From assembly GCF_037392515.1 (NCBI RefSeq), contig NC_090295.1:22236501-22300500 (forward strand): DNA of 64,000 nt, given 5' to 3'. The notes beneath the pieces are model-generated. The model saw nothing but the letters and a program-made list of their open reading frames with translations, was not told the DNA's origin and did not search any database. Of this stretch, positions 2,256 to 34,775 are shown piece after piece (within the stretch, counting starts at the first letter, position 1; each line of letters begins with the position of its first letter). The position numbers and the translations under genes are program-made. This DNA is from Haliotis asinina. Taxonomy: Eukaryota; Mollusca; Gastropoda; Lepetellida; Haliotidae.

Positions 2256-2387
2256 CATGAGTTTGCAAGTTTTCAAAGCTTCCAGAAAGATTTCGAACAT
2301 CACATGATAAAAAATCTTGAGCATTAATAGAACCACTCACCACTTACAAGCACAACGTCTCTCTGGTTGTTGATCAAGTCTTCTTGC

Positions 2388-3296
2388 ATGATGTCTACTA
2401 CTGCTGCTGAAGCCGTCTATCAGTTTGCTGACAAACACTATCTAAGTATCAACTACTTCAATGGGGTAGTGTATGTGCATCTGTCCAACTGGAATTCGCA
2501 AGGTATGAAAAAGATCATCTCAATGACATCAGAGGTGTTCAAAGCATTCCTCGGCTCTTCAAAGGAGTACACGGCCACACTTGATGATTACGAGACAATC
2601 CCAAGACAGCTCCTCACCTGCTTCTCTAGCAGTGTCCCACTGCATGCTACAATTCCAATGACTGGACATGGACGGGCAACGTCACCCACTCCCATGAACA
2701 AACCGGGTACCATTATGTCACCACCACCGCCATATTCAGAACCAAGCCGTGTAAGCAGACCAACGCCCTATTCGCGTGGCGAGTCTTTATTCAGCAACAT
2801 GGGAACTGTTGAAGATGAACGCTGTGTGTACTTCTATTCGAGAAACAGTCCTTTCAGTCAACACTATCTTGTAAAGATGGAAGTGGATGGGAAAACCTTT
2901 AACTGTTCTGAGCAGTACTATATGTATTGCAAAGCTTTGACATTTGGAGATACATTTATTTCTGAGTGTATTTTGAATTCATCATCTCCATCTGAACAGA
3001 AACAGTTAGGTAAACGCGTGAAGAACTTTAATCCCACCGTCTGGCATACGATAAGTCCACAAGTGGTGGAAAGAGCCAATTATGCCAAATTCACTCAGTC
3101 TGAAGAACTTAAGTCTCTGTTGCTAAACACATACCCTAAGGTGTTAGTAGAGGCATCCCCATACGACAGAATATGGGGAGTTGGACTCTCCCTATCAGAT
3201 ACTAGGATTAGGAATGAATTAAGCTGGCGTGGTCACAATCTGCTGGGAAAGATCTTAATGGGTGTGAGGCAGCGTATTTCCAGTGATTATAATTAA
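2388..3296 (+). CDS. PC4-like / NADAR domain fusion protein
   Basis: Single-exon gene of 302 aa; the first ATG is at 2388 (the frame is open upstream only from a TTG codon). Residues about 12-68 look like a PC4 (transcriptional coactivator p15) single-strand DNA-binding fold: YLSINYFNGVVYVHLSNW, then a basic turn and ISMTSEVFKAFL. A Pro/Ser-rich linker (about 90-135) contains PPPPY, a possible WW-domain ligand. Residues about 146-295 are a NADAR (YbiA/DUF1768) domain: FYSRNSPFS, CSEQYYMYCKA, EQKQLGKRV, VEASPYDRIWGVGL and NLLGKILMGVR all fit the family. NADAR enzymes cleave N-glycosidic bonds in riboflavin-pathway intermediates or ADP-ribose derivatives. No signal peptide or membrane segment, so intracellular or nuclear. 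Its divergent partner is the zinc-finger ORF. The NADAR call is strong, the PC4 call moderate, the role unknown. Confidence 0.85.
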   Translation: MMSTTAAEAVYQFADKHYLSINYFNGVVYVHLSNWNSQGMKKIISMTSEVFKAFLGSSKEYTATLDDYETIPRQLLTCFSSSVPLHATIPMTGHGRATSPTPMNKPGTIMSPPPPYSEPSRVSRPTPYSRGESLFSNMGTVEDERCVYFYSRNSPFSQHYLVKMEVDGKTFNCSEQYYMYCKALTFGDTFISECILNSSSPSEQKQLGKRVKNFNPTVWHTISPQVVERANYAKFTQSEELKSLLLNTYPKVLVEASPYDRIWGVGLSLSDTRIRNELSWRGHNLLGKILMGVRQRISSDYN

Positions 3297-11891: not shown

Positions 11892-14800
11892 TTAGCTCAC
11901 ATTACTGACCATTCCACGTTTGAGATTCTCCCAGAACACCTCATTGCCCTCTTCATCGTCGGTGTATTCAACATAGGACTCGTGTGCGATGATATCCCAG
12001 ATGCTTCGAGGAAGGTACTTCGCAGGGATGTACTCGAGCATGACAACCAGCAGAGTCTTCCGTTCCGTGTAGATGCTCTCTATATTAGCCATCTCCAACT
12101 CGTACTTACACCAGGGGCTTCTCAAGAAGTTCCTGGACAACATCACAACCGTCTTCCTGCTCATTCGAATGGCGTTCAGGATGTTGGCAGCAATGTCTTC
12201 CCCAGGAAGGAAGTCACGGTGATGGATGCATAGCCTGAGGCCTTCTCTGTCCTCCAGTCTATGCCTCATGTCTTCAGTGACAATACGTCTGTCTTCATCC
12301 GCATAGGAGATGAAAGCATCATACTCAAACCCTTCATCGCTTTCAGTATTCAGCCTTTTGTATTTGCTTCTGGTCAGGTAATACAGATACCTAAGCTTCC
12401 AGCGGTACCTGTAGACCACACCAGCTACACCCAAAGACATGGCAATCATGACAATACTGAGGGTTCCTATCATAACACCCACATAGGACGCACAGGATTT
12501 ATCAAGTCTCAGTGTCATGTCTCTGATTGTGTGTATGTTCAGGACAGCGGCCTTGTCGTCGGTTGTTGTGCAGAAATAATGTTGGCCTTCACGGAGGTGA
12601 CCAGACATCCACTTCAAGGACGGTAGACTGTCACAGTTACATTTCAGAGGGTTCCCTTTAAGTAGCAGGGTCACGTCTTGGACGGAAGCAGCGTCAAGTT
12701 GAGAGCGGAGAGTTGGGGGTACTTCTTCAAACAGATTATATGAAACATCCAACAAGGTAAGATTCCGCATGTGACTGACGTCGGCGTCCCATTTTCTCAT
12801 TAAGTTGTAACTTAGGTTCAGGTGAACCATCTCAGTCATATTCTTAAACACATTTGGGGGAAGATGACTGATTTTGTTGTTGGCCATGCTGAGATGTTCC
12901 AGTGTGAGGAGATTGTTGATACTGTTGTCCTTAAGTGAATATCCTAGAAAATTAGAACTGATATTCAAAACTGTTAATGAAGGGAAATTCTTGCCAAAAT
13001 TATCTCCGATATAATCACAATAGTTGTAAGAAAGGTCAACATACTTTAATGCATTGAGGCCTAGTACTGGACCTTCCCAACGTGTGAAAAAATTATGGGA
13101 CATGTCCAGGAACTTCACCTTATTGGGTCCAAATTGTGATCTCGGAATGATATAATTCATTTTGTTGTTGCTGACGTTCAAGAATTCTTCGTTTGGTGGA
13201 ACATACACAGTGAAATTTCCTGGCCACCCAGAATAGTTTACATAATTTTGAGGAAGTGGCGTTCCCTGAGTCATAAATGTCAAAAACAAGGGAGGCAATT
13301 CTTGTATTTGCGCGCTGACGCTTGGGGAAAGTGCCAGAAGTGTGTCAGGGTCTTTCTTGGACTTTTCCTGGTTTTGTGTCGTACCCTTGTGGCACGATTC
13401 TTTACTTTTCCACTGATCTGGAACTGTGCAGGAGTAAGAGTCTGGATCAAAAATACCATCTTGAATCATTGTGACTAAGGTGGACTGGTACCTTCTCTCA
13501 CCCACAGAGAAAGGGTTAACATGAGACTGGTGCTGCAAGGACGTGTCGGCCCAGACGAGGTTAACGAACTTCGACAGGGCTAACAAATATAATCCAAAGA
13601 TAAAGTTATTGCGTTTAGCTGAAATGACTTTGAGACTTGATGGTAAATCCAATACGGTTTTCTGGTCTAGAAGCTCAATCTGATTCTCATCAGCATGAAG
13701 TTCCTGGAGCTTGCTACCCTTTAGGTAGTGGACATCTTGAGGATAGACCACCACACCAGCGCCACGACGTCTGTGAATTCTGTTCAATTTCAGGACCTTG
13801 AGTGAAGTGTTAACTACACCTTGCATGCCATGGGCCAATGTACCGAAAGTCAGATCCACGTTGGCCGACAAGTCCAGCGTATGGATCTCTCGGAGAGGGA
13901 CAAAGGTAAAGGGTTGTATTTTCGTGATTTCACAGTTGGTGAGATCAAGGAATCTGATCTTGGGAAGATTAATGAACGTGGTGTTCGAGAGCGTATTGAT
14001 AGCACATGTTCCCCCCGATCCACTCATCACTAAGGTAGTGAGATTGTTAAGGTTCTTAAATCCAACACCAAACACCGGATTGTCCAGCCCGTCAACGCGG
14101 AGTACTTTCAGCGAGGTTAGATCAGAGAAAGTTTCGTCCGGGTATTTCATTATCTGCCTACCAACACGGGAATTGTTGTGGAGCAACAGCACTTCAAGTT
14201 TTTTCTGATATTTGAACAACCCTGGTGGAAAAGTTTGGTTGTCAAGTTGGAGAAAGTTGCCGTGCAGGTCAAGTGTCGTAAGATCAGGTAGGTTTACTAG
14301 AGTCTTGCTATTCAAGGCGTTTAGTTTGTTGAAGGATGCGTCAATATAGCGTAGTTTTGAATAACGCTTTAAGCTCGTCTCCTTCAGAACTGCTATGTCG
14401 TTGTGAGATAGCTCCAAGTCGATAAGATTACGAGGAAGGTATTCAGGAACGAAAGCGAGGTTTCTTCCTGTGCAATTAGCGGTTATCTCCCCTTGTTGTT
14501 GGTAACACGTGCACGGGTGACAATTCTGTAGCCCGTATAGCAATGGAGCTGATAAGACGACCCACGCCAGAGGCAGTAAGTCATGTCTGAAAAATAAAAG
14601 GACAATGATAAAGCCGGAAATAATGAGTCGAGACTCGATTATCAAGTGAAACAGATTTCGTTTGGCTTAAAAGTAAAATAATTGATGAGAACTATGAATC
14701 ACTGAATCTGTGACGACACTGGCATGAAAAAAGCAATCTCATCCTGCTCTCTGAATAACATTCGACACTATCAATTTTGCAACCCCGTAAAGAGTGAGTG

Positions 14801-16378: not shown

Positions 16379-16647
16379 TACTCACTCACTCACTCACTCA
16401 CTCACTCACTCACTCACTCACTCACTCACTCACTCACTCACTCACTCACTCACTCACTCACTCACTCACTCACTCACTCACTCACTCACTCACTCACTCA
16501 CTCACTCACTCACTCACTCACTCACTCACTCACTCACTCACTCACTCACTCACTCACTCACTCACTCACTCACTCACTCACTCACTCACTCACTCACTCA
16601 CTCACTCACTCACTCACTCACTCACTCACTCACTCACTCACTCACTC
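16379..16647. repeat. (ACTC)n microsatellite, about 67 uninterrupted units
   Basis: About 269 bp of perfect tetranucleotide directly continuous with a SINE tail, so it most likely arose by expansion of that tail. The open frame it creates (Leu-Thr-His-Ser repeats) is not a gene. Confidence 0.97.
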
Positions 16648-17718: not shown

Positions 17719-17898
17719 CAATCCTCCCCACGTGGTTACCACACTGCGGTTCGACACTGGAGGCAGTTCGGACACCACAACTAAGAGGATTAACTCCATA
17801 ACGTTGTTCTAAATGACTATCGGCGCCATAGGTGGCCTTTTGTTTTGAACCTCAAATCACCATGATTTACTGTTTTTCTTGAAACGAAACTATAAAAG
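17719..17898 (+). promoter_or_regulatory. Conserved promoter module of poly(His-Gly) gene A
   Basis: TATAAAAG at 17891-17898, 66 bp before the ATG, in the context acgaaactataaaagg. A block near 17719 (ttacaatcctccccacgtgg then ttaccacac) matches gene C upstream (28346 on), and caccatgat lies about 30 bp upstream of the TATA in both. This upstream similarity extends about 240 bp before the ATG. Confidence 0.75.
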
Positions 17899-17956: not shown

Positions 17957-18890
17957 ATGAAGAACATTACAGTGATACTATGTCTTGCACTTGGTAAGTC
18001 TTGTATTCGTAATATTAATATTTATATACTCATTTTTCATTTCTAATAGTTCAGTGGAATGATCTACAATGGAATCTTGACATCACAAGTCTCCCTAATA
18101 TGACTTCCATACAAGTACCGGTGCAAGCCTTGGCGTCCTTTTAGCGGAGACTTGCATATCGTAGTTTCGCGTCACAGATTCGCCCTGATTATTTTATTTT
18201 ATTTGTAAACATTATTTGTTGAGAAATATCTAAGACCAACATTTCTCCGGGATTTGCTCCCACATCAAACAAACAAAACTGAAATACTGTCTAGAGACGC
18301 ACCTAAATCACCTCACCCCAGTTTCCATTAGTTTGATAATGTGGTACTATATATCACATGGATAATCTGGCAGCATAGATCACCTTTCATGGGTGTGAAT
18401 GATTTGAACTTTGATCTGCTTTCTGCCTAAAAAGGAATGGTAGGTGAGGGAAGGAGTGCAGAATTCACACTGCCATCAAAGAATTCTGTCAACTGCATCT
18501 CCTTACTCGAGTTGAGTCTTTTGCAAATGGAACAGTGACAGCTATAAACAATGTATTATTTCAGCTGCAGTTGTCTTTGTGACTCTAAGTGAAGGCCACG
18601 GTCACGGTCACGGACATGGTCACGGTCATGGACACGGACATGGACACGGTCATGGTCATGGACACGGACATGGTCATGGACATGGACACGGTCATGGTCA
18701 TGGACACGGACATGGACACGGTCATGGTCACGGACATGGTCATGGACACGGACATGGTCACGGTCATGGTCATGGACACGGTCATGGTCACGGACATGGT
18801 CATGGACACGGACATGGTCACGGTCATGGTCATGGACACGGACATGGTCACGGTCATGGTCACGGTCACGGTCATGGTCACCACGGGTGA
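17957..18890 (+). CDS. Secreted poly(His-Gly) protein, copy A
   Basis: CDS joins 17957-17993 and 18565-18890 (GTAAGT donor, TTTCAG acceptor), 120 aa. Exon 1 codes MKNITVILCLAL; the junction codon and exon 2 continue AAVVFVTLSEG, a typical signal peptide. The rest is (HG)47 followed by HHG and TGA. After the opening GGC, every Gly codon in the array is GGT or GGA and every His codon CAT or CAC, so codon variation is synonymous throughout. A 60-bp block (18721-18780) is repeated identically at 18781-18840. If cleaved after VTLS the mature N-terminus is E-G-H, a Cu/Ni-binding ATCUN pattern (inference). Expected properties: secreted, metal-binding, pH-sensitive. An alternative acceptor 6 nt downstream would drop two residues. 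Confidence 0.85.
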
Positions 18891-19288
18891 AATAGAGAAA
18901 GGGCTTTCAAGCCATGTGAGTGTATGAAATGATTTTTCGGCATTCCTTCAGCTGTCAGTCAATAGGTCTCAGCTAAATAGCTTTGTATACTTCCAATTCC
19001 AAAGAGATTATTCGCCGTGTGCATGTAATTTCTGAAGTAATTCAGCCAATGATTTCGTAACCCATCTGTGGGCCAGTAGTTATGAATAGAGGGCATAAAT
19101 TAGACAAGTTCATCAAATGGAAAACGTTCCAATTATATGAATTGTTCATGGTGCTCGATTCCTTCTGTGTGGTGATGTTCAGATTGCCAGCCATTATAAT
19201 TATTGATAATTTACAGAAGTATATTCAAACAAATGGTTGAGACCCCATGACAATGCTGAAATGTTTTTGTTTGTTTGTTTTGTTTCAG

Positions 19289-19370
19289 ACAAAGGGTGAC
19301 ACTTTGGTCCTAGTTATATTGGGAAACTGAGGGAATTATTTGTGAAATAAAATGTTAAAAGATAAAGAAA
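19289..19370 (+). other. Terminal 3'UTR exon of copy A
   Basis: Follows the acceptor TTTGTTTTGTTTCAG; AATAAA at 19346-19351. It aligns with corresponding exons of copies B and C (shared gggaa, gggaatt and late ataaaatg/ttaaaatg blocks). A donor-like CAT then GTGAGT at about 18915 would complete the intron. Confidence 0.55.
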
Positions 19371-19399
19371 GTGTCGTTTGTCTTCTGTTAATATACTGT

Positions 19400-20740
19400 G
19401 AGCTCATACTGACACAAAGCTTACTGCTTCTACAGAGAATGTTAGTTGTATTCCCACCTGTCAAGCTTTAAGACCCTCGAAGTTGTGGAATATCAGAGTG
19501 GTAAAGAAACACCCAGGGCGGACACTCTCCATCATCCACTTCCATATGGTTCTACGATACTTTTCAATCTATATCTTGTCTCGAGTACAGTCAAAGTAAA
19601 CTTAGTTACACACGTATACTGAGTGTCTAACAAGCCCAAGTAGGAGGTCGCGTCTGGTGCCTTTTGAGACTGATCAATCAGAACACAGCTTACCAAATCG
19701 CTAAAGTTGATACCTTTGGGACTTTTACCTTGAAAAGGTTTGATCCCGAACCTTTCCGAATGTTATTTTCCGTACGATCGCTTCCGGGAGATGCACATGA
19801 AGCATCACTGTTTAAACAGTCGCTGAAAATAGCTTTTCGCCAATATTCAAGGGTGGCAGCTTAAGGAAATATAAGCTAATGGCATGTCAACGGAAAGCTA
19901 AAATCGTATATACTGTGGATTTTCGTTTGTTGAGAGATCAATGCCAGTGACTGGGGAATTTTGCAAGTCCCACCGAAAGAGTAGCTGTTGTCTGATTGGT
20001 TAAATCTGTTCGGCTGTCTCGCATTTGATTGGACATAGATTGCACAAAGGGTACCCCACGCGAGCTGCTACTAGGCTTTGTTAGCCTCAGTGTAGGACTG
20101 TAACGAATAATATAGAAACTAAGTTTACTTAGACTGGTCTTCAGTACACTCGAGTCTCGTGTCCACCCGTAGATCCCCCATACCATACTTTAAAATGAGG
20201 TACTCGTAGGTCCCATTAATGGGTACAACAAGGACTGCTGGGCTCGCAGTTAATGTAATGTGTTTGAGTTGTGTATTCATGTACACGCATGCACGTCGTT
20301 ATATGAGGAAATTTTTCTAAAATGCGACTTTAAACTCCATTTCACGTTGTCTCACCGCAAGGCATAAACCGATAAACCTTGTCAGTATCGTAATCGATGT
20401 CGTGTTCATGTTCGTTATCGTCAGAATGTTTTGTATTGTGGATTTCCCCTCTCAAAAACACTTGAAATATTTTTTTCATGTTGATCCTTGAAGCAAATAC
20501 AAATATATATCATGAACCGGATGTAGAAAGCTTATTTGCAAAGATATCAGTGGTTAAAGTAATGTTTTTTGCTGTTGATTTAGGGACTAACTTAGACGTT
20601 CTGTTATCAGAACAAGTTTTACGTATCAGTTTTAGTTAATCAGTATAGTGATTTTCATCAAAGTTTGAACTCTGTGAAAACCCCGTTTCATACGTAAGAG
20701 GATTTTGGAACTGAAGTAGATCAAATTGATCTTCAGATTC
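19400..20740. other. Intergenic DNA
   Basis: No supported gene. A 66-codon frame at 19664-19864 lacks family features. Confidence 0.4.
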
Positions 20741-20742
20741 AA

Positions 20743-20778
20743 TGGTGGTGGGGGGGGGGGGGGGGGGGAACAATGGGG
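20743..20778 (+). repeat. Poly-G tract
   Basis: ggtggt then a run of about 19 G, followed after a short gap by six more G. Confidence 0.9.
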
Positions 20779-21059
20779 GGTTTAATTTCCGCTGCATATG
20801 GTGGGTTGTACAAGAGAAGCCGAATAATATTCTCCGAAATCTATGGTCATTTCTTGGCTTCTCGGACATCGGCTGACAGCGTACACTGTATGAAAAGAAA
20901 TAGTCAGTTTAATCCCAGTCTGTTGGCATGTCATCATGAAATTGCGTATAATATTTTTGTGTAAGTTGCCCTTGCACACATGATAAATCGGAATTCGCAT
21001 AGCACTCATTATCAATCAACAGTGTGATACCAAAAGCCGAAGTGGGTGTTGCTGTGGGG

Positions 21060-21187
21060 CTGGTGTGGTGTGCGTGTGTGTCCGTTCGTACGTGCGCGCG
21101 CAAGTGCGTGCGTACGTGCTTGTGTGTGTGTGTGTCTGTGTGTGTGTGTGTGTGTGCGTGCGTGCGTGCGCGCGCGCGCGCGCGCTC
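21060..21187. repeat. Alternating purine-pyrimidine tract (GT/GC)n
   Basis: Long tgtg and gtgc/gcgc stretches ending in about 20 nt of pure gcgc. Nearly all positions alternate purine and pyrimidine, the classic Z-DNA-forming pattern. Confidence 0.9.
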
Positions 21188-21549
21188 TCGAACCCAACAA
21201 AACGAATATAAACTGGAATACCACAGACCATTACTCGGCAGTGTGAAGTTGTCTCAAGCTCATTGAGGGAGTGCTTCGTTAGAGGTTTGGGTGAGAGAGT
21301 ACAGTTTGAGTAAGTGAGTGTTTTTTGTCCGCATGCTCTCGCACCGACAAATTGAATATGAACTGGAATAGCACTGATCCTTGCTCAAAAGTGTGACGTC
21401 ACTCCTCGAGCGGATGTTTGAATGAATGTTTGAGTCCGTGGTTGCGTGTTTGGGTAGCTTAGTATTCAGCCATACTTGATCTTGCAATCAAAATTGTCAC
21501 TGTGTGCATGTAATGACTGGAAATATGATACATGTTACATTTGTCGTGA

Positions 21550-21682
21550 AGACCAGCAATATCACGGCGGGAGACACGAGAAAATGAAGGTTCACACATT
21601 GCACTACATGCATGTAGGGATTCGAACCCGGGTATTCGGTGTGAGGAGCGAACGTTTTACCTACACAACCTATCGGATTCTC
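21550..21682 (-). repeat. SINE family 1, inverted and partial
   Basis: Contains agcaatatcacggcgggaga, ttcacacattgcac and gattcgaacccgggtattcg. Confidence 0.75.
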
Positions 21683-21919
21683 ACACACAACAAACACTAC
21701 TATGGAATAACCATTTTGTGTTCGTTTCATTCGTTGACACATCAAACATAGGCGTGTATTTCCTTTCGCCAGGACGTTTAGTCAAGGGAGGTAAGTCCAA
21801 TGTTAGTCAAGTCAAAATGTGACAAACCTCAAAAAACTTCGTACAGAAATGATTTTAGTGTTTCACTATGTTTTAGTAATAACTAATGAGCACAAAAAGT
21901 CCTCCCTTGAAATCTGATG

Positions 21920-22385
21920 CTAAGTCCTACTTTTGGGGGTAAGAATTTGAAAAATTGACATTTTCAGTGAATAATTTTTAAAATCTCATTTGACACAAAA
22001 ATTTACCTTCTTATGTATATTTTTAAAGAGAACACAAAGTACTGCCAATAAATGGGTTGGAAAAGTCAAATAATGTTATGCGAAGTCGGGTGAAAAACGA
22101 AAAGTTGAATTTTTCAGAGAATAATTTTTAAAACGTCTTATTAGACACAAATGTACTTTGTATGTATATTTTAACAAACAACACGTGGTACTACTAATAA
22201 ATGTTCTGGTAAGATCAAATAACGCTTTATTTAGTCCTGTTTTGGAGTTTAAAAAGGTAAATAATTGAATTTTTCATTTTAACAAATTTTATATTGAGAC
22301 TCACATAAACTTTTTTATGTATATTTTGAAAGAGGACAGAAGGAACTACTAATACTCGGGCTGGAAAAAGCATATAATTTGAACA
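21920..22385. repeat. Diverged tandem repeat, three units of about 150-165 bp
   Basis: Each unit holds a ttga(c/a)(a)tttttca core (near 21955, 22105, 22267), then gacaca/gactca, ttatgtatattt and a ctacta/ctgccaat block. The units are strongly diverged and AT-rich. Confidence 0.75.
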
Positions 22386-22399
22386 AAATCATACATAAA

Positions 22400-22975
22400 A
22401 GACCTCCCTGTGCATGTATTTCTATTTGCTAGGGTGAAATAAACACGACTGCAGAAACAAAATTAGTTCCTCTTTTTTGTCTCAACAAAGTTATGATTTC
22501 TCTGAAAGGGAACTATCTCCTATCAGTATGGAAGAGCTGTTCTATGGCAGTCTAAATTATTTGGGGGGTGGGCGGGGATGGTGGTGGACGGGGGCGTTCT
22601 GGGGGATGGAGGTATTCGAAGATAAGTCTCTTACAATTGAAATTACAATCCATATCTCAAATACTAATTAACATGCAGATTGATCTGCATTGTTTTTTTC
22701 GGAAGCATAGCACTTAGCCCCTACATCTGAAATTTGACATAATTTAGTAATAACTGAGCAAGATATAAATTAACATATCAGGTGGCTTGAACTGTTGTGG
22801 TGGTGACCATGAACACCAAGGCCTCTCACTAGGGTGACAGAGATCCCCTTGGCCTCACAGTCTGAATATTTGAAGTATTTCATTTTTAAAATTACCGATA
22901 TTTTTAAAGGCAGTAAAAAGGACACGACTGGTCATACTTAACATTTAAAACCTTCCTAGGGCTGTTTACAAGCAG
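22400..22975. other. Intergenic DNA
   Basis: No supported gene; a G-rich stretch occurs at 22561-22610. Confidence 0.4.
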
Positions 22976-22977
22976 CC

Positions 22978-23172
22978 CAGTAACCATGAAGATCTAGGTT
23001 AGAATTGATCTTCAATAACGCATGCTTGTCGTAAGAGGCGACATAACAGGATCGGGTGGTCAGGCTCCCTGACGTTATTTGCATCTCAACTGCATGGATC
23101 AGTCTCATGCTGTTGATCACCGGATTGTTTTGACTGACCGCCACCACGTAGCTGAGTGCAGCGTACAAGTTA
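22978..23172 (+). repeat. SINE family 2
   Basis: Recognised by aaccatgaagatctaggtta, ggatcgggtggtcaggctcc, catgctgttgatcaccggat and gctgagtgcagcgtac. Confidence 0.85.
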
Positions 23173-23754
23173 ATGGTTTTTTCCACTTTTAAGAAAAAGA
23201 TTGGTTTGTTTTTCATTACAAATATGTGCCATAAGTCTAATTTATGTGAATCAATCGAAAGGGTTTTTTTTCAAGTAAATTCCAGCCCGCTTTTTAAAAG
23301 TTTCTGAGATTTCAAATCTGATAAATGATTTCTAGCTATACTATCAATAGTTGCTAGGGTTCACTCAATTCTGCTCACTTAACATAAAGTTGCCATTTCA
23401 AGATAATAGAGAACAAGTTATTTCACCTTTTGAAATTGTTTCCAAATTGGCAGCATAGGAAATATAATAATTATTGTTATCATATTTTCTGATCTTTGTT
23501 CTGGTATATGTTTCTTCAAGTTCTATTAAATCTTGATCCGGAATATCCCATTTATCACCATGGTGCGTAGTCTTACACGACCGCGGTGGAAATGGCTCTG
23601 TTGGCTTTTTATGGGAGCAGAATCACCTTCGCCCTCATCACCATCTCTTTCAGTTGACATGACTTAGCTGTCTTTTTAATCATCTATCTATTAAGCTAAC
23701 TATAGGCTCTTCTGGTTAGAGTACAATATATCATAGACACTTTTCTTCCCATTC

Positions 23755-23840
23755 TGCGAGCCCATTTTCTGGTAACCCCCGCCGTGATATTGCTGGAATA
23801 TTGCTAAAAGCGGCGTAAAACTAAAACTCACCCACTCCCA
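23755..23840 (+). repeat. SINE family 1, 3' part
   Basis: gcgagcccattttctggtaa, gatattgctggaatattgct and gcggcgtaaaactaaaactc. Confidence 0.85.
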
Positions 23841-25125
23841 TTCTGCTACTTCAATCTATTGTAAGCAAATGGGAGATAACTCAGTTTCTCGTTTTCTTTG
23901 TGCTGGAGTGACAGAAATCCAAGCTCAAATGTCATGTTGTATCTTTTTTCAATTATAATTTTCATTATTTACTGTTATATACGCTTCAGTTGTCTGTTTT
24001 TCAATATTTTATAGAATTTTCTGGATTTATTTTGAGGTAGAAAAAACAGTTGAAAAATACCATTTTCACAATTTTGCACCAAAACGCCACTTTGCATCAA
24101 CATCCAAAGGAAGGACTCTTTATATATTGTTTACAACTATTGTAAATGATACAAACACAAAAGCATTTCTGTACCAACATCCTTTTAGGTTCAGTGATTT
24201 TTTTTCACTAATTTACTGGACTATGTGGCCAAGATGTTTGTTGAAAAGCACAACAATGACCACGACAACGAACACAGATCTGTCGACGACCACTACAACG
24301 AACTTGACAATGACCATGATGCTAACACTGCAACGACTTCGACTGTGGTATGCGTAGCAATTCAGTGTTCATTGTTGACATGTCAGTTGAAGAGTTACGC
24401 CCCCTGGGCGTGCCAGGATCCCATGATCGTTGGTCTGGACACTTTAGGATTAAGATTTGTTGGCGAGATCGGATGGTTAAAATTCTGACCTTGTCTTTTG
24501 TGTATTTACGTCTCTGATGTTGAAATGTTGCCCCCTTTGCATACGGACTCGTTATTAGTCTAGAATATCATAATTTTTATTAATAGTACATTTCTATGGT
24601 GTTATTTCCATATGGTAGCATGCTCAAACTGCTTGTTATGCGCGAAAAGATTCATAGTCACATGACCCATCCTACGAGTACCCCTGGATGATCAGGGAAG
24701 AGAGGCAATTTTGAACAAACCTACTCGCCCAAGGTGAGACATGTATCATAAGTGCTTCGTTGTGAGGCAGGACCGGTCATAGAAACTCTCAGGAGTCAAG
24801 CTGCCAAACAATGTCACCCATCAAGGGACACTCCGTGCCCAACGCTGCCCAGTCACCTGAATTGCTACAGTGTAAAGCAACATTCGGGCAGTTCCAGGTC
24901 GTCCTGGAATCGAAGAAGATTCCAAATGGTTTGGGTGCTGTGCCCAGGAGGAATCTGAACCATCATTCTATCCATGGAAAGCTTGTGCTGCCTTTTTCTA
25001 TATAGCCGTGCTTGACATTCAGGTACGAAATGTAAGATGTCACCATAGCGTCCCACAGAGCATACGTGCATGCCTTGTGTCGGCATGGAAATAGTGTACA
25101 CACATGTATTAACCAATGAAAACAT
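23841..25125. other. Intergenic DNA
   Basis: Nothing firm. An Asn/Asp/His-rich frame at 24225-24350 is noted among the rejected items. Confidence 0.4.
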
Positions 25126-25134
25126 ACACTCATG

Positions 25135-25211
25135 TGAATATCATTGTTTTATTATTTCAGATTATAAATCCCAGTTTCCGAAATGACTCCAGCCACATCT
25201 TTACGCGTACC
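25135..25211 (-). other. Terminal 3'UTR exon of copy B
   Basis: On the minus strand the acceptor GTTCTTCTTCAG precedes a block similar to the terminal exons of copies A and C, with AATAAA at 25153-25148. Confidence 0.5.
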
Positions 25212-25384
25212 CTGAAGAAGAACATCGTCATTATTTTTTATCAGTTTGTTTAGCTATGTTTTTGTTTGTACCTCAGGTCGAATGGAGTTAAGCATAAATG
25301 GGAATTAGTGAATTTCTGTTATATTCACCGTGTTCAAGAACATAGTCAGCTAAGCCCTGTTATTTGTGTGAATGAGGGATACAT

Positions 25385-25620
25385 CGTGGGGTTTTTTTTG
25401 TTTAACTCCGCATTCAGCAATATTCCAGTTATATGGTGGCGGTCTGTAAATAATCGAGTCTGGAACGGTGATCAACAGCATGAGCATCGATCTACGCAAT
25501 TGGGACACGATGAGATGTCAGCGAACCTGACCACCCAATCCCTTTAGTCGCCCGTTATGAAACGGATGGGTTACTTAAGATCGATTGTAACCAGGACCTA
25601 CACGGGTCCGGCCAGTATTA
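25385..25620 (-). repeat. SINE family 2 within the 3'UTR intron of copy B
   Basis: Inverted: ccgcattcagcaatattcca, gatcaacagcatgagcatcg and cctgaccacccaatcccttt are recognisable. Confidence 0.85.
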
Positions 25621-25826
25621 GTCAGGTTGATGGTTGATATTATCAGCAATGCCGCACACCATTAGGGCACGATGACACGCAATTCAAGTACGTGAGCCAG
25701 TCTGACGCTGTTGTCTCTTTCATTCAAATTACCTGTAAGCACTTTTATCTACAAAATTACATATTTTAACACTTTTTACGGTGTTATTGGTGAATATCGA
25801 TGGCTTTTCAGTACCTCCTCCATGTT

Positions 25827-26956
25827 TCAGCCATGGTGTCCATGTCCGTGACCGTGCCCATGACCGTGACCGTGACCGTGACCGTGACCGTGCCCATGAC
25901 CGTGACCATGTCCGTGCCCGTGTCCGTGACCGTGCCCATGTCCTTGTCCGTGACCGTGACCGTGACCGTGACCGTGCCCATGACCGTGACCATGGCCGTG
26001 ACCGTGCCCGTGCCCGTGCCCGTGCCCGTGTCCGTGACCATGACCATGGCCGTGACCGTGACTGTGACCATGAGCTTCACTAAGAGTCACGAAAACAACT
26101 GCAACTAAAATAACACAATATTTATAGCATTACAATGTCCACTGGCCTAATAATGATCTTCAAAAACTTAGCTTCAACTAATGTCAGATAGTAGAGCAAT
26201 ATGATTTGTGTCTTGGACACTGCCATACAGGTGTGTTCTTGTTGGTAGAGTATAGAACAATTTTAAGAAATTAAACCCTTGATTAGAATAATCGCTTACA
26301 GAAAATTTAAACGATATTACTGGTAACTGTTCACAACTTATACACAACTTGTACACAACGCCCACAATATGCATTATCAGCATTATTTGGTGGGTTTGGT
26401 TTTGCAACGCTTCTTCAACAGTAAATCAGTGTCCGTTCAATGAGGGTGGGAAAACCCCAAGTAATATGTTTCCTAACCATGTACCTACAAAAGTGGGGGC
26501 GCTCGGGCAGTCTAGTGGTTAAAGAGTTCACTTGACCCACCTAAGTCCACATCGGTACAATGAGTGGAGTCCATTTCTGGTGTCCCTCGCCGTGATGTTG
26601 CTGGAATATTGCTAAAGGCGGCGTAAAACCATACTCACTCACTCACCTACAATACTGGCGAAGGTAACAGCCCGGATATGGTGCTGGCAAGGAAATGCAC
26701 ATAATCGGGGAGTTCCGAACTAACGATATCACCGAATCCACCTAAGGGACGCAACTCTGCATAGTTGCTTGGCCAACACATGCCCTGTCAGTTGAAGCAG
26801 AAAGTAAAAATATCTTAAAGGGGCTAAGTAGTATACCTCAATGTGTGATGGCCAGTGAATGTAACGAAACGGAATAATCCCTAACTATATTACCAAAACG
26901 CCAGAAAGCTTCAACTCACCAAGTGCTAAACATAGCATCACTGTAATGCTCTTCAT
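25827..26956 (-). CDS. Secreted poly(His-Gly) protein, copy B
   Basis: CDS is complement of 26920-26956 plus 25827-26104 (GTGAGT donor, TTATTTTAG acceptor), 104 aa. Exon 1 codes MKSITVMLCLAL, then VAVVFVTLSEA in exon 2, a signal peptide like copy A, followed by HGHSHG and a His-Gly array to HHG and TGA. Two positions break the alternation: Ser in the third dipeptide and one Gln (HGQGHG). Gly codons here include GGG and GGC as well as GGT/GGA, so the array has its own substitution history. A mature N-terminus E-A-H would again be an ATCUN pattern. It lies on the opposite strand between A and C. A donor-like GAG then GTACTG lies 15 nt after the stop. Confidence 0.85.
26491..26646 (+). repeat. 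SINE family 1, antisense in intron 1 of copy B
   Basis: gcagtctagtggttaaagag, ccatttctggtgtccctcgc and gcggcgtaaaaccatactca. Confidence 0.9.
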
Positions 26957-27014
26957 CTTCGTGTTGACGTCTTGAAGTAGAACGTACTGATGACACGCTT
27001 GCGTCTCAGATTTC

Positions 27015-27022
27015 CTTTTATA
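27015..27022 (-). promoter_or_regulatory. TATA box of poly(His-Gly) gene B
   Basis: TATAAAAG on the minus strand 66 bp before the ATG, preceded by tttgtttgtacaaaac as in copy C (tttgtttgtacgaaac). Confidence 0.75.
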
Positions 27023-27179
27023 GTTTTGTACAAACAAAAATAGCAAATCACAGTGAGTTTTTATCTAAGTTATAAGACGCCCACGGTGTCGTTGGTCAGT
27101 TGGAAAGACGTTGTGGAGTTAATCGGCTTATGTAGTAGTGAGCCTGCTGATAACTTAGTTAATCCGCCAACTTGCAGGA

Positions 27180-28340
27180 TCCTAACATATGCACGATAGG
27201 GGCGCTGTTTAGTTTGTTATGCGCCCCAAACACGATTTATTTACACATATTTGTTGCAGGTTCTTTGTTTTGATAAAGAGAAAACCATTTTAGCCAACAG
27301 GCAGTTCGAGACGAAATTATTCCTCCAATAAGCAGAACGAATCGAAATGCAAATGATGTATCGTTTGTAGTTTCTTGGGGTAGAACAACCTTCATTTACT
27401 AAAGTGGATGTTTTTGTTTCAGAAAAAAACTACTATTAAAAAATGTAATTCTTGAACAGGCTTTACTTTAATGTATTTGAAAAAAACAAAACAAAAAAAC
27501 TTGACAGTAAAAGGACAGTAAAACCAACTAGAATATCACAGATACGAATATAAAACTACTATGTGACTCTAAACCAGCGTAATTACAGAAACAATACAAT
27601 ATATAAATAGGCTACACGCTGCCAACAGTTGAAGGTAGATCACATTACAGGGACCATGGCGACTTACAGAAATTTTAGCCTGAGTGGCCCCTAGCTGGGT
27701 TCACGCCATCCCTCCAGAGGTTACTAAGTATTGACAATCTAGCCAATCTGAATTATGATATATAATGCCATGTATACTACAGTTACGTATGAATTTTAAG
27801 TAAGTTTTGGGATTTACGTACCCTCCTGTATACGTAGAACCATGACGGTACATTTATATTCATTGTACTCGAGTTAAGGATTAGGATTTTTACTGGACAT
27901 TTCTGTTCGGGAATCTATGACCCCAGAAAAGAGGAACAAAACTTTTCTTGATACAAACAAGCCAAGTATTTCAGGCTTAACACTGAAGAATATCCATTGC
28001 CGAAATTATATGTGTACTGTATGTTCGGAAGGAATGTAGAGTGTAAGTAAAATTTATTTTTATTTCAAGAAACTCATAACAAAATCAATATTTGTTCTCT
28101 CCGTCTTAATTGTGCATTTATAGTATTTTAGATATTGTATTTTACATCGTTAATTTTCCAGTCGTGTAACATGACGAGAAATTAATAAATATCAACTCGA
28201 TCAAGACATACGTTTGTTTAAATCACAGAGGTTGTCGGTTTATGTGGTTTCACAGTGATACAAATGGCATAACGTGTCACCTTTTCATTCAGTGTACATG
28301 TTCAGGGCTGATATGAAATATAACAGAGCTCTTACAGTGA
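27180..28340. other. Intergenic DNA between copies B and C
   Basis: AT-rich with A-tracts; no gene supported. Confidence 0.4.
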
Positions 28341-28345
28341 ATACA

Positions 28346-28562
28346 TTACGATCCTGCACACGTGGTCACCACATAAATAAATCTCACACCTACAACGAGG
28401 ATTATCTGCACAACTCACTGACCATCAACTCAGTGGGTGTTGTCCTAGTTTGATTACCTCATAAACGTCATTCTTATTGATTGTCAATCAACACCATGGG
28501 TGTCTTTTCGTCTTAAAAACTCACCATGATCTTGTACTTTTGTTTGTACGAAACTATAAAAG
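28346..28562 (+). promoter_or_regulatory. Conserved promoter module of poly(His-Gly) gene C
   Basis: TATAAAAG at 28555-28562, 72 bp before the ATG, in acgaaactataaaaga. The block ttacgatcctgcacacgtgg then tcaccacat matches gene A upstream. Confidence 0.75.
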
Positions 28563-28626
28563 ACAATCTGCGACCCAAGCGTACCATCAGTATAATAGTA
28601 GTCTAATTCAAGACGTCCATACCAAC

Positions 28627-29494
28627 ATGAACAACATAACACTGATACTATGCCTTGCACTTGGTGAGTGAATGGGTTTTGTCGTACTGGTATTATTGCT
28701 CGGTAATACTGGTAATATTGGTAATATTGGTAATATTGGTAATATTGTTTCGTTTCGTGAACTCCAGTGGTAGTATAGTTTTTCTTCGTTTCGTTAACTT
28801 CTCTACCACACCACAGTGACACATAATACTTTAAGATACTTCTTCTACACGCATGTAAGTGACAATTTGTCTTTCTTTAGGTACGTATATGGGTCGTGTT
28901 GTACATTCCATGTTGTTCTTTTTTTCGTTTCGTATCTATGCGTCTCTTCGATTTCGTTTACCATCAGTGGACATATATGCATATGTTCCCATGTAAATAT
29001 AATTGGCTAAGTTTGAGGCATAATCATTCTTCGTGCAGAGTTATCTCCCTTTAGAGTATCAGAGTCATGCATTATCGTGGTTCAAACACCTCAATCCAAG
29101 AAGTTCTATTCCTCCTTTCTGTATTGAAATCAACTTCAAATCAAATTGCTGTCATAACTTCAGTCACTGCATTTAATCCCAAAAATGTGTTACTTTAGCT
29201 GCAGTTATCTTCGTGACTCTGAGTGAGGGTCATGGACACGGTCACGGTCATGGACACGGTCATGGACACGGTCACGGTCATGGACACGGTCATGGACACG
29301 GTCACGGTCATGGACACGGTCACGGTCATGGACACGGTCATGGACACGGACACGGTCATGGACACGGTCACGGTCACGGTCATGGACACGGTCACGGTCA
29401 CGGTCATGGACACGGTCATGGTCACGGTCACGGTCACGGTCACGGTCACGGTCACGGACATGGACATGGTCATGGACACGGTCACCACGGTTAA
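28627..29494 (+). CDS. Secreted poly(His-Gly) protein, copy C
   Basis: CDS joins 28627-28663 and 29199-29494 (GTGAGT donor, TACTTTAG acceptor), 110 aa. Signal peptide MNNITLILCLAL then AAVIFVTLSEG; the remainder is about 42 His-Gly dipeptides ending HHG and TAA. Gly codons are GGT/GGA and His codons CAT/CAC, with no amino-acid change anywhere in the array. The intron starts with five ggtaatatt-type 9-bp units and carries ttcgtttcgttaactt phrases that reappear, expanded, upstream of copy D. An AAAG then GTATGG donor lies just after the stop. Confidence 0.87.
28690..28746 (+). repeat. 9-bp repeats in intron 1 of copy C
   Basis: ggtaatact then ggtaatattggtaatatt-type units, about five in a row. 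Confidence 0.85.
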
Positions 29495-30027
29495 AAGAAT
29501 GGAAAGGTATGGTAATGTAGTGTATTGTCACTATACTCAATGTAAATATAAATGTGTTTCCAACAGTCAGAACTACTGATCCCGAATACATTTGATTGTC
29601 GGTAGTGGATTACTGAAACGATGACCAGGCCACATGTTCGCTAGATAGCGTGTTCTGGTGCCTATATAGCTTGATGTGTTGCTAACTATATCAGCCACTG
29701 GTTTATCCAACGCTGTGCTCTTGCTGCAAGACATTGCTAGATGAGGCGCAAAACATCATCATTCTTTCACAATATACCCCTTGGATTTCACTCTATCATT
29801 ATGTCTGAAAAGGTTTAAAGTTTAATGCAAACCGCAGTACGATGGCTACCATTTGTTGAGGTAGTGGTCAAAGCGTTCGCTCATTCACAGTTGATCCAGT
29901 AAACACTCGACTACATGATTCTCCGTCATATAGGTGTACCACTACTACTGGTAATGATATGCTGAAAATTTCTATAGCGTTTGATCCAATCACTGTGTGG
30001 GTGCTCTAAGTCAGTCATCAGTAGTTC

Positions 30028-30190
30028 ACTCCGCTGTCAGTAGCCTAGTGGTTAAAGCGTTCGCTCTTCATGTCAAAGGCTCGGATTCGATTTCCCACAT
30101 GGGAACAATGTGTAAAACCGTTTCTGGTGTCCCTTTGTTAACATAGCTGGAGTATTGCTGAAAGCGGCGTAAAAGCATACTCACTCACTT
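30028..30190 (+). repeat. SINE family 1 in the 3'UTR intron of copy C
   Basis: gtagcctagtggttaaagcg, tcggattcgatttcccacat and gcggcgtaaaagcatactca. Confidence 0.9.
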
Positions 30191-30299
30191 CAGTGGAAAT
30201 GAGCTACATGCAAACTTGAATGAGGTATAGAAACACATATAAGCAAATGTGAAGCGACGTTATAATAAGGCTGACGATTTGTTGTGTTTTGTTTTTCAG

Positions 30300-30375
30300 A
30301 TGTGGTGTGAATCTCTGGTCGACGCTGTTTGGGAACTTGCGGGAATTCATTTTGAATTAAAATGTAATGATATTC
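30300..30375 (+). other. Terminal 3'UTR exon of copy C
   Basis: Follows GTTTTGTTTTTCAG; shares with the copy A exon the order ggtgtga/gggtgac, ctctggtc/ctttggtc, tgggaac/tgggaaac, gggaattc and a late taaaatg. The poly(A) signal is the variant ATTAAA at 30356-30361. Confidence 0.55.
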
Positions 30376-30725
30376 AGAAGAGTGTTTGTTTCGTTGACAA
30401 ATACACATATCGTGGTTCCATGCAAACGGTACACTTGGCAAGCATGCGCAGTGGAGCCGAAAGAAGTCACCACTCGAAGGAACAGTGAATATGCTTGTGA
30501 ATTATGGGATGGTTGTACCGTGTAACAAAGGAAACGTTGAGAAACTCCAGTTAGAAGCTGCCAGAATAGTTACGGGTCTTCCGAGAGATACCTCACGACA
30601 ATTTCTATACAAATGTAAGACAAGAAAATTTTACCAAAATGTTTTCCTTACGCTTTCATGTATAGCGATGATTTGATAGCGTTCAATAACCATGAACCAA
30701 CCAATTACCTTCCACTGATTTACCG

Positions 30726-30872
30726 GGCCTGAGGTAGCCTAGTGGTTGCTCGTCACGCTGGCGGTCCGGGTTCGATTAACCTCATAGGTAAATGTGTGAA
30801 ACCTCCCGCCATGATATTGCTTGAATATTGCTAAAGGGGGCGTGAAATTCAACTCACCCACTCACTCCACTG
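30726..30872 (+). repeat. SINE family 1
   Basis: gaggtagcctagtggttgct, ggtccgggttcgattaacct, catgatattgcttgaatatt and caactcacccactcac. Confidence 0.9.
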
Positions 30873-31316
30873 ACTTACCCAGATGAACCTGAAATTAAGG
30901 AAGATTCGAACTAACGATGTATCCGGACACGTCTAAGGGACGCAACTCAGCATAATTGCCTGGACAACGCATGTTCCATGTACCCAGATGAACTTTGAAA
31001 TAAGGAAACAAGTGAGACCGCTTTAACTATTTCTTATTTAGATCAATGCATAAAGACCATTCAAAGTGACAAAAAATATCTCCACGGGTCTGTATGACAA
31101 AGGGGATGGTTTCAAATGCCCAGTAGTGTTTGCAACCAAATTCCGATGTTTGTCACGTGGTTAGAAAAATACAAGTGAAACACTTTCCTTTCATATCGGG
31201 CAATAATTCCAACAGTACAAGCCTTTGGCGATTACATTTCTTTTCAGGTGCAAGAGAGCTTACTCCTTTTACCAAGATTTAATAGAGCGACACTTGCCCA
31301 GGGCCTAGATTTTCGA

Positions 31317-31393
31317 AGCTCTCGTAGCTCTAAGATAGTCGTAAGTGCCATACTTTAATAATACCTTACGACTATCTTAGTGCTAAGAGAGCT
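31317..31393. repeat. 29-bp inverted repeat (hairpin, MITE-like)
   Basis: Left arm 31317-31345 (agctctcgtagctctaagat...) pairs with right arm 31365-31393 with 27 of 29 positions complementary; spacer 19 bp. Similar palindromes built on ctaagatagtcgtaag are, from memory, dispersed in mollusc genomes. Confidence 0.85.
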
Positions 31394-31399
31394 TGAAAA

Positions 31400-33270
31400 A
31401 AGGTTACAACATTCCAGGCCTCAGTAAGGTTTTCTAAATTACTTTTTTTCATATTCTGGTACCATGTGTTTCCAAATTATTTCAGGTGGTACAGTTGACT
31501 GGATTTTGTATTTGCTTTATGACGGGTGCCACCGGTGGGGCAGGATACGGTCTCCTTTTCGCGAACACCTGGTATCATCAATATTTCACAGTGATTCATA
31601 AACACATGCTCTGTCATCGTATCGCATGGTGACAATCACTGTATTGTCTGGTCCAGACTATAATTGTTTACAAATGACATCGTACAGCTACCATACTGCT
31701 GAGACAAATATATGCTCACACTTGTACACTAGACTCTGCTTTAGACACTGTTTTCCCATGAATGTGAAAACGGTTTTGTCGCTTTTTTTGCATTTGTCAC
31801 TTTTAGCTACATTTGTCGGACTTTGATTTATATTTCTCACAACTTGTTCACTTAAACCATACTGCTTCACTGTTCCTTTGAGGTTTTAAAAAAATCACAA
31901 GCTCCAATTGTACACATTAATACATTTTCCAAAAAAATACGTTGTTCTCTCATAACAATGACCAATAACAATTAGTACGACATGCATGGTACTGTAAATA
32001 ATACATCCAATGTAATGAGATATAATATATCACCAGTTACTGAGAAGTTATAAATGTTAGACTGAATCTGAATGCCTGATTGTGGCAACAGGGAAGATTT
32101 ATTCTAGACATATTTGTAGCTTTATCTCAGAGGAATGTTTGAAGAAAACGTGTCAAGACAGAAACATTACTGAAGAGAAATTCTGGTCAAGATTGTTTCA
32201 TAGGTCTAACATGTTTGGGAACCTGTAAGAATGGCTAATGAATGTATGCACAGTCAGTCTCATGATATGGAGTATAGGTTATTCCAAATGCTGTTACAAA
32301 TTTTCTCTTGGCTTTACTGTGAGTCTCATTTCATCTCTCTGGTCTTAGGGTAAACTTTAACAATTTACTGGTGATACTAAGTCGAGCTGAGGGAGGGAAA
32401 TCATCGGGTTTCGATAATATTCCAGTTGATATTTTTCGTCATTACCCCTATCCCTTAGTCTGGAGATGACGACCCGAGAGACCCTTTGTCTTATCGCTGC
32501 ATCACACTTGATAGTGCATCATTTCGTTACAATCAATCATTTGTCGTTGATTGGTTGATATAGGATCTCAGTGTTGTGTATCCATTTCCTGTTGTAGTTA
32601 CAGAAGTTGTTTTTGGCGATTTCGTGTATAAATGCAAACAGAACATTTTACAAGTTGGCAGTTAACTGGTAGTTAAAGTAACATCTTACGCAAGTAATGA
32701 CGTACTTTCAAGCTGAATTTTGCCAGTGAATTTCATGTGAATTGTAATATATCTCTCTATGTGAGAAAAACACTAGCGCCGCTTAGAAACTTGTCGTTTC
32801 GTCGCTTGTCCTTTAACTGAAAGAATTAAATTTTACTTTTACTGTAAAGATTTTACTGAAGATGAGTCTCATGTTTTGTTGTAATGTCCTTGCATGCTGA
32901 TGAACAATTGCAACTTGCACTTATCTGTTTAGTACCATGTTAAGGCGATACGTGAATGAATAGCTCTTTATCTCTTGGATAATTACTATCTTAGGCCTTA
33001 AATATCAGCGTTAGTCCAAGATAACGGCCGTTATTGAACAGGCGTGAAATCCGATATCATCAAAGGTTTGTTTACGCATTCTGTGAACAGTAAAGAACAT
33101 TTTATTCTCTAAAATCCCACCTACGGTCATACATAAGAATGCACTGATGCAGTTTAATATAATTATACAGTCGAAATGACAGATACTAGAGTAGTTAAAT
33201 GAATTATTATTATAGCACAATTCCTTTTCAATTTTGTCAGTATATGCTCTAAACTTGCGACATAAATTTG
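31400..33270. other. Intergenic DNA
   Basis: No supported gene or repeat. Confidence 0.4.
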
Positions 33271-33299
33271 GTGTTCTCTGTTTCAGTAAAGGCCTGCGG

Positions 33300-33435
33300 G
33301 TATTTCATGAAATCCCTGAGCTAATATTTCAGTAATATTATGAAATCCATGGGAATTTCAGGGAATCCATGAAATCCTTGGGAGTCACAGTGGTTTCACG
33401 AAATCACATATATAGGGATTACGTGAAATCTCTGG
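33300..33435. repeat. Degenerate tttcatgaaatcc repeats
   Basis: At least six imperfect copies of a (t)ttcatgaaatcc motif. The core tttcatgaaa is itself palindromic. Confidence 0.7.
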
Positions 33436-33642
33436 TTTCCCTGTATTATGCTCTTGTTGGGTGATTGCTATCATTTAAAAACACAATTCTGAGCACATAT
33501 ATAAATACATGTATATTTCAAAATACGAACACTAATATTACAAGGAGAATCCGTTTGTAAAATGCGTTTATCTCCTTGTGCAGCTCACTACATCGCTGGG
33601 ACCTCCGAAATGCCAGCATTCCGTCTCATACTCCAAAGGGAT

Positions 33643-33722
33643 GGGAGGGTAGCCTAGGTCTTTGCTCTTCACGCCGAGGGTATATATTGCTAATAAAGGT
33701 ATAAAATCAACTCACTCACTTT
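33643..33722 (+). repeat. SINE family 1, internally deleted
   Basis: gagggtagcctagg, ttcacgccgagggtatat, then taaaatcaactcactcac. Confidence 0.65.
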
Positions 33723-33892
33723 CGAAGCTTTCCGCCTAATACAAAGTCCAAAATAAAGTCTGGACTCTAACTGGTACTGAATCTCCGTGCTCACTGGGGC
33801 TAATTCAACGTAAACGGAGTTAGAGACGCCATTTAATTTGAATTAACTGAGTGCAGCGTAAAACTAAACTCACTCACTCTTGTGAAAGGCAT

Positions 33893-34065
33893 CTAGCGGG
33901 ATCGAGTGGTCAGGCTCGCTGCCTTGGTTGATGTCACGTCATTGCAACCCAAAGACGTATAGTTCGATGCTGAAGTCGTTGTTCACTGGAGTGTTTGGTC
34001 CAGAATCCATTGTTTACAAACCACTGCCATATAGCCGAGATATCATTGAGTGCGGCGTTCACCGG
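33893..34065 (+). repeat. SINE family 2, 5'-truncated
   Basis: gggatcgagtggtcaggctc, ttggtccagaatccattgtt and gccgagatatcattgagtgc. Confidence 0.8.
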
Positions 34066-34069
34066 CACA

Positions 34070-34560
34070 ATGACATTTGTAACTTCACCAAACTGGGACT
34101 TTGTCGTGCACAAAGAGAACTGGAGCTTTCTCTCGTGTGGTTACATTGTTGTGGAATATCTCGTTTTGTTAACTTTAGTGATAATATATGTTATTCATCG
34201 TTCCGTTAACTTCAGTGGTCAAGCAATGGCGTGTTACTTCGCCAAATTGGGACTTTGTCTTGCACTGCGAGAGCTAAAGCTGTGTTGCCTATTGGTAACA
34301 TTTTTGGGGATTATTTCCTTCGTTATCTTCAATGACAACATGTTTTTTCTTCGTTTCGTTAACTTCACTGGCACGGTGAGACTTTGTCGTGCACAAAGAG
34401 AATTGGAACTTTTTTATAGTATTGGTAATATGGTTAGGGATTTTGTAGTTTCGTTAACTTCAGTGGTGATATTGTATTTCAGCGTTTCGTTAACTGCACT
34501 GGCACAATGGCATGTGATGCTTCCCCATAGTGGGACTTTCCCTTGGACTAAGAGAGTTAA
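34070..34560 (+). repeat. Diverged tandem repeat upstream of copy D
   Basis: Units carry a gttaacttcagtgg-type phrase (34168, 34205, 34358, 34453, 34489) and a ggactttgtcgtgcacaaag-type phrase (near 34097, 34250, 34379). The first phrase also occurs in intron 1 of copy C, tying this array to the gene family. Confidence 0.75.
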
Positions 34561-34610
34561 AACTTTCTGACGCATTGGTAATACGTGAAGATCGTTGCTT
34601 CATTCCATTT

Positions 34611-34775
34611 GCAGTGGTTTTCATGGCCATTAGTGACGGTAATGGCCAAGGTAATGGTCAAGCAAATGGCCAAACACACAGCCCAAATAGTAGCAAGACA
34701 GGAGAAGATGGTGAACTCGGATATTGACACTATCATGGGGACGGGCATGATCACGGTCACGGTGAAGGGCGCTAG
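34611..34775 (+). pseudogene. Decayed poly(His-Gly) gene, copy D (exon 2 remnant)
   Basis: In one frame the segment reads AVVFMAISDGNGQGNGQ, then an Asn/Gln/Thr/Ser stretch, GELGY, a TGA at 34725-34727, and in the same frame HYHGDGHDHGHGEGR before TAG at 34773. AVVFMAISDG matches AVVFVTLSEG of copies A-C. Most His codons of the first half are replaced by Asn or Gln. The acceptor AG present in the other copies ahead of (c)tgcag is missing (cattccattt), and no exon 1 with a signal peptide was found upstream. Either a pseudogene or a strongly diverged paralogue with a stop. Confidence 0.7.

Follow-up and report, generated by a model that had tools for sequence, protein, structure and literature searches.

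Secreted Gly/His-rich proteins that bind metal are already a known kind. Shepherins and holotricin-3 are secreted proteins built on Gly/His repeats, and Glycera MTP is grouped with the His/Gly-rich proteins of annelid jaws. The annelid protein Nai11527 (a partial sequence of about 53 kDa, 29% Gly and 16% His) has a signal peptide and is linked to Zn in the jaw tip (PMC13120676). Glycera jaws themselves employ His–Cu (PMC6477608). In the squid HBPs, His acts as a pH switch and phase separation requires the Tyr of the GHGxY motif (PMC6884462). Viper poly-His–poly-Gly (pHpG) peptides interfere with the zinc of MMP-1 and thereby inhibit the enzyme (PMC12108757). Finally, the HGHGHGHG loop of plant IRT1 binds Zn with nanomolar affinity through four His while staying disordered (64 nM without its Asp; PMC12203963). 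Here, we describe a gene family of the mollusc Haliotis asinina whose products carry a presumed signal peptide followed by an array of His and Gly, in several members an almost strict alternation of the two. The starting point is a 64 000-nucleotide stretch (the window; C16:22236501–22300500; the genome comprises 1.143 Gb and 159 contigs), in which an earlier note had placed three such genes, A, B and C, and one decayed copy, D. So far, the family has been seen in this one haliotid genome only.

Genes A, B and C lie where that note had put them, and the cluster of three genes with its relic was recovered, with a signal peptide (assigned by eye) and a His–Gly array in each gene. The features, in coordinates of the window, are as follows.

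17891..17898, plus strand: TATA box of gene A (TATAAAAG), 66 bp 5′ of the ATG.
17957..17993, plus strand: coding exon 1 of gene A, 37 nt (MKNITVILCLAL + 1 nt), donor GTAAGT.
18565..18890, plus strand: exon 2 of gene A, with the remainder of the signal peptide, the (HG)n array, HHG and TGA.
19289..19370, plus strand: putative 3′ untranslated region (UTR) exon of gene A, AATAAA at 19346–19351; the end is approximate and the donor not established.
25827..26104, minus strand: exon 2 of gene B, with the remainder of the signal peptide, HGHS(HG)n including one Gln, HHG and TGA.
26920..26956, minus strand: coding exon 1 of gene B, 37 nt (MKSITVMLCLAL + 1 nt), donor GTGAGT.
27015..27022, minus strand: TATA box of gene B (TATAAAAG), 66 bp 5′ of the ATG.
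28555..28562, plus strand: TATA box of gene C (TATAAAAG), 72 bp 5′ of the ATG.
28627..28663, plus strand: coding exon 1 of gene C, 37 nt (MNNITLILCLAL + 1 nt), donor GTGAGT.
29199..29494, plus strand: exon 2 of gene C, with the remainder of the signal peptide, the (HG)n array, HHG and TAA.
30300..30380, plus strand: putative 3′ UTR exon of gene C, ATTAAA at 30356–30361; the end is approximate.
34615..~34785, plus strand: D, a decayed exon-2 relic (VVFMAISDGNGQGNGQ..., a stop, then HYHGDGHDHGHGEGR).

The three proteins are 120, 104 and 110 residues long (A, B and C, respectively), of which 97, 81 and 87 residues follow the presumed signal peptide. Exon 1 consists in each case of 12 codons and one base, and the phase-1 GT–AG introns (571, 815 and 535 bp) lie inside the presumed signal peptide. 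Mature A is made of 48 Gly and 49 His in strict alternation up to the final HHG, an ending shared by all three genes, as had been claimed. The further claim that nothing but alternating His and Gly is present holds for A and C, the mature parts of which consist exclusively of these two residues, but not for B, which adds one Ser and one Gln. Genes B and C stand head to head, with 1671 bp between their ATGs. The promoter and exon 1 (140 bp) of the three genes align at 72–74% and their final 63–64 bp at 84–86%, whereas their introns can be aligned just in short pieces; the putative 3′ UTR exons of A and C are 71.6% identical over 109 bp. Within the window, a first-exon consensus allowing up to 13 substitutions matches A, B and C alone, and a genome search with the promoter and exon 1 of A (140 bp) likewise returned only A, B and C (three of three candidates scored). 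D has kept the final part of the signal sequence together with a degenerate, His-poor GNGQ array interrupted by a stop. The sole open match to the first-exon pattern in the 1.6 kb upstream of it (ATG 34340) was dismissed, as it has no TATA box and lies in a locally repeated stretch.

The family extends beyond the window by about 80 more copies, all on the same contig.

C16:22223063, minus strand: gene E; 118 residues, intron of 237 bp, at a distance of about 13 kb to the left of the window.
C16:13536252, plus strand: gene F; 107 residues, intron of 113 bp.
C16:43.458–43.520 Mb: tandem array 1, unit of about 2.85 kb.
C16:43.5715–43.657 Mb: tandem array 2, unit of about 3.06 kb.

After the presumed signal peptide, E and F, like A and C, consist of His and Gly alone, and A, B, C, E and F are free of Lys and Arg there. 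The tandem arrays carry two further gene types, G (MQFSNFAALLGLALAAVLGLASGHGHGG...HHG) and H (MHFLKVAVLLVAVLAAVFGTSMAKGHGGGHG...KGHHG), and A, B, C, E, F, G and H share one layout: a 37-nt coding exon 1, a phase-1 intron, the array and a final HHG. The 51 array copies of G (22 in array 1 and 29 in array 2) comprise 50 full-length copies and a truncated one; the GTGAGT donor is present in 51/51 and the TATA box in 49 of the 50 tested, and one copy holds a single Tyr. Array 2 has 28 second exons of H, 27 of them full-length and one truncated; 26 of the full-length second exons are joined to an exon 1. Together, the arrays hold 77 full-length copies (50 G and 27 H). In the unit read, G and H lie head to head on opposite strands, about 0.7 kb apart. 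In array 1, H is dead: a deletion of about 130 bp has removed its acceptor along with the first part of exon 2, and all 21 copies seen have an altered TATA box, compared with 0/28 in array 2. G is full-length in 22/22 copies of array 1. This difference between the arrays is a natural experiment on the dependence of G on H. The deletion is common to the array-1 units, so that either H had died by the time the array was amplified or gene conversion carried the deletion from unit to unit. A solo G exon 2 lies at C16:43872067, where the first-exon pattern search gave no match. Pieces of A, G or H matched nothing in the 51 kb that separates the arrays, and locus L041 likewise gave no match. To the left of array 1 lies a 13-bp satellite, TCACTATGAGGTA, in about 350 copies (L036 1306–5987).

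The codons of the arrays point to purifying selection on the His–Gly coding sequence. When the codons are counted one by one, leaving out the final HHG, the ratio of synonymous to nonsynonymous changes away from the most frequent His or Gly codon is 41:0 in A, 28:2 in B (the two being AGT and CAA), 30:0 in C, 45:0 in E and 40:0 in F. A count by position in the hexamer, with B and E assigned by hand, places 43/43 changes at third positions in A, 30/30 in C, 29/30 in B and 45/47 in E; in a His–Gly minisatellite on C5, which served as the single control, the figure is 0/18. The changes within a gene are not all independent, because the arrays contain higher-order units of 18–48 bp. For G, one gene from each tandem array was compared (the array-2 copy chosen bears a minority Gly-to-Ser change). 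Exon 1 is identical at 37/37 positions and exon 2 at 187/194, against 199/250 in the intron, 95/109 in the 110 bp before the ATG, 384/443 farther upstream and 92/100 in the first 100 bp past the stop. The coding differences are 16 synonymous to one nonsynonymous, the synonymous count being approximate owing to gap placement in the array. Among the G copies of each array (21 and 29), exon 2 is invariant over its first 35 nt, with upstream variation of 1.5 and 1.1%, respectively.

We then consider relatives elsewhere. Searched against 5.8 billion proteins, A had ten matches, five of them named and none of these as a mollusc's or an annelid's; among the eight that were read, none has the family architecture throughout. 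Four of the ten weak matches carry PF07172, and one, from a plant, is named holotricin-3-like. H had no match in the same database. The scores expected for the A query are E = 5e-36 for C, 8e-34 for B and 6e-12 for F; G and H were not listed by A, and the expected score of G with H as the query is just 0.45, so that distant members could be missed. In the haliotid proteomes searched, the family either does not occur, is unannotated or falls outside the length range. In a Pfam scan of A, B, F, G and H no model reached its cut-off, PF07172 included; the sub-threshold matches were TrAA12 (A, 28.7 of 30.9 bits), New_glue and DUF2946. Eight matches among the PDB sequences are compositional as far as their names show. 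In our searches of an open-access collection, with most subscription journals outside its coverage, we recognised no description of a poly(HG) family, and HGHGHGHG led to no mollusc paper by title; a check of PMC6425005 and PMC9658076 by term yielded nothing useful. The family is apparently undescribed so far.

Within the genome, one protein search, in which 150 of 10 397 candidates were scored, did not find F, which other searches recovered; weak family members may therefore be missing. Outside C16, neither H (E 0.01) nor G (E 1e-5) had a match in the genome protein searches. The A and F queries gave weaker matches there, and the four examined were repeats or other frames without the family signal sequence. 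A Gly-Leu/His repeat on C5, an HGVG minisatellite at C9:3134401–3136600 and an HD/HG repeat at C2:99595601–99597600 all have long open frames, and no family signal sequence was seen beside any of the three; a match on C12 is a frame of SHSHNCHGH type. It should be noted that the C9 minisatellite is open on both strands (HGVG over 462 residues one way and LHHALHHV over 407 the other way), that the C2 repeat has HG/HD dipeptide frames of 411 and 414 residues on the minus strand with RG dipeptides opposite, and that open frames of up to 2119 residues cover a repeat matching the His–Gly query at C6:18451147–18457405, which is either a satellite or a giant repetitive protein.

What might such proteins do? 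We favour a secreted polymer, made in bulk, that binds metal and serves in a material, and give this reading a probability of roughly 45%. We infer that the genes are expressed and their products secreted. In A, B, C, E and F, the signal peptide would be cut next to the array, presumably where S/V/C-E-G/A/C is followed by His, to release a chain of about 81–97 residues, nearly half His or more and probably disordered. The His content of the mature parts is 25–56%. With about four His per Zn2+ or Cu2+, one A chain could hold about a dozen ions. The TATA promoters and the 77 full-length array copies suggest bulk production. The result would be an extracellular polymer with a high capacity for metal, forming part of a hard structure or of a secretion crosslinked by metal. 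Metal binding by a chain of 40–49 alternating His, which the earlier note had already suggested, is very likely, since the IRT1 loop binds Zn at nanomolar affinity with only four (PMC12203963). The note's other suggestion, a pH-responsive material, stands in part: in a simple pKa model, A, B and C shift from about +39 to +48 at pH 5 to near zero at pH 8.1, but coacervation of the squid-beak type requires Tyr (PMC6884462).

Several observations weigh against the polymer reading. Neither Tyr nor Cys occurs in mature A, B, C, E or F, so that squid-beak-type coacervation does not follow (PMC6884462); a material made of them would need metal to set. There is no haliotid protein among the matches of A or H, although the database includes annotated proteins of three Haliotis species. 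Passages located by term in three Haliotis shell-protein papers (PMC6003135, PMC4944945 and PMC1676022) yielded no His–Gly protein, which tells mildly against a role in the shell; in the first of these, the sole ‘histidine’ sits in the title of a perlinhibin reference. Moreover, the proximal promoter of G is conserved between the arrays no better than the sequence farther upstream. Finally, exon 1 of G is no less variable within array 2 (0.56%) than the intron (0.53%), and therefore adds no support.

The main rival, which we consider unlikely, is that these are antimicrobial or antifungal secreted peptides that withhold Zn or Cu from microbes, for which shepherins, holotricin-3 and tenecin-3, Gly/His-rich peptides of plants and insects, offer the comparison. 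Small size, a presumed signal peptide and high tandem copy number would suit such a role, as would the six Lys of H (modelled charge of about +6 at pH 8.1), its head-to-head pairing with G at about 0.7 kb and the plant match named holotricin-3-like. On the other hand, G is conserved between the arrays rather than diversifying, A, B and C are almost uncharged at seawater pH in the model, and the Toll-like receptor gene near the cluster proves nothing. A role in carrying or buffering copper, zinc or haem-like ligands in haemolymph or tissue, for instance for haemocyanin copper, is improbable: high His content and presumed secretion recall vertebrate histidine-rich glycoprotein and Plasmodium HRP2, yet no folded domain is encoded that could serve retention or uptake. 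A gland-stored metalloproteinase inhibitor resembling the viper peptides is a long shot, as these consist of a His block and a Gly block, unlike the alternation of the family. Its precedent is the block of MMP-1 by pHpG peptides through the zinc of the enzyme (PMC12108757). That the arrays are no genes, but functionless minisatellites open by chance, can be rejected with high confidence: His/Gly-like minisatellites with long open frames do occur on C2, C5 and C9, but the family members share promoters, splice sites, a 37-nt exon 1 and nearly synonymous-only change, in contrast to the C5 control.

The window contains other features. A Toll-like receptor gene (LRR, TIR) at 11892–14666 on the minus strand is 83% identical to Haliotis rubra toll-like receptor 4 and 72% to that of H. 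cracherodii, which sets the animal among or near the abalones. A NADAR domain (PF08719, E 1.9e-47) is encoded by an open frame at 2331–3296 on the plus strand, and a Pro/Ser/Leu-rich open frame of 251 residues at 41698–42453 on the plus strand, over a 45-bp minisatellite (41963–42449), had no match in the Pfam scan. At 16380–16647 the tetranucleotide ACTC is repeated in 67 pure copies.

A bolder version of the metal-binding polymer, which we advance as a tentative and on balance doubtful proposal, is that this may be the simplest natural metal-binding protein polymer: a strict His–Gly copolymer from about 80 copies on one chromosome, with shorter, Gly-richer and Lys-bearing partners on shared divergent promoters, which Zn or Cu would set outside the cell as a material or a barrier through His–metal bonds alone, without Tyr, 3,4-dihydroxyphenylalanine (DOPA) or Cys. 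If the genes are expressed as they suggest, the family would provide a natural two-residue polymer in which to test His–metal bonding in a secreted material or in metal withholding, and would suggest that low-complexity secreted genes of molluscs may escape gene prediction. The two tandem arrays are also a clear case of copy amplification, one of them having lost a partner gene that the other retains.

How does the family compare with the known systems? With the plant glycine-rich PF07172 proteins, which are secreted, it shares Gly/His repeats and presumably secretion, and that model is carried by four of the ten weak matches of A; no Pfam match was found in the five family proteins, and the likeness is compositional. 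The viper poly-His–poly-Gly peptides resemble it in their His and Gly and in chelating zinc (PMC12108757). Among the annelid jaw His/Gly proteins, which include Nvjp-1, Nai11527 is likewise rich in His and Gly and has a signal peptide, as is presumed for the family, but, at 29% Gly and 16% His, it is set apart by composition from the near 1:1 alternation of mature A (PMC13120676). Squid beak HBP-1 and HBP-2 are extracellular mollusc proteins with GHG repeats and a His pH switch, whereas mature A, B, C, E and F have neither Tyr nor any hydrophobic residue (PMC6884462); the Tyr of GHGxY being absent from all five, they do not belong to the coacervating proteins of the HBP type. The IRT1 loop has the identical dipeptide repeat, is disordered and binds Zn at nanomolar affinity (PMC12203963), with the difference that the loop is intracellular and has four His, while the chain of the family is presumed to be secreted and has 40–49.

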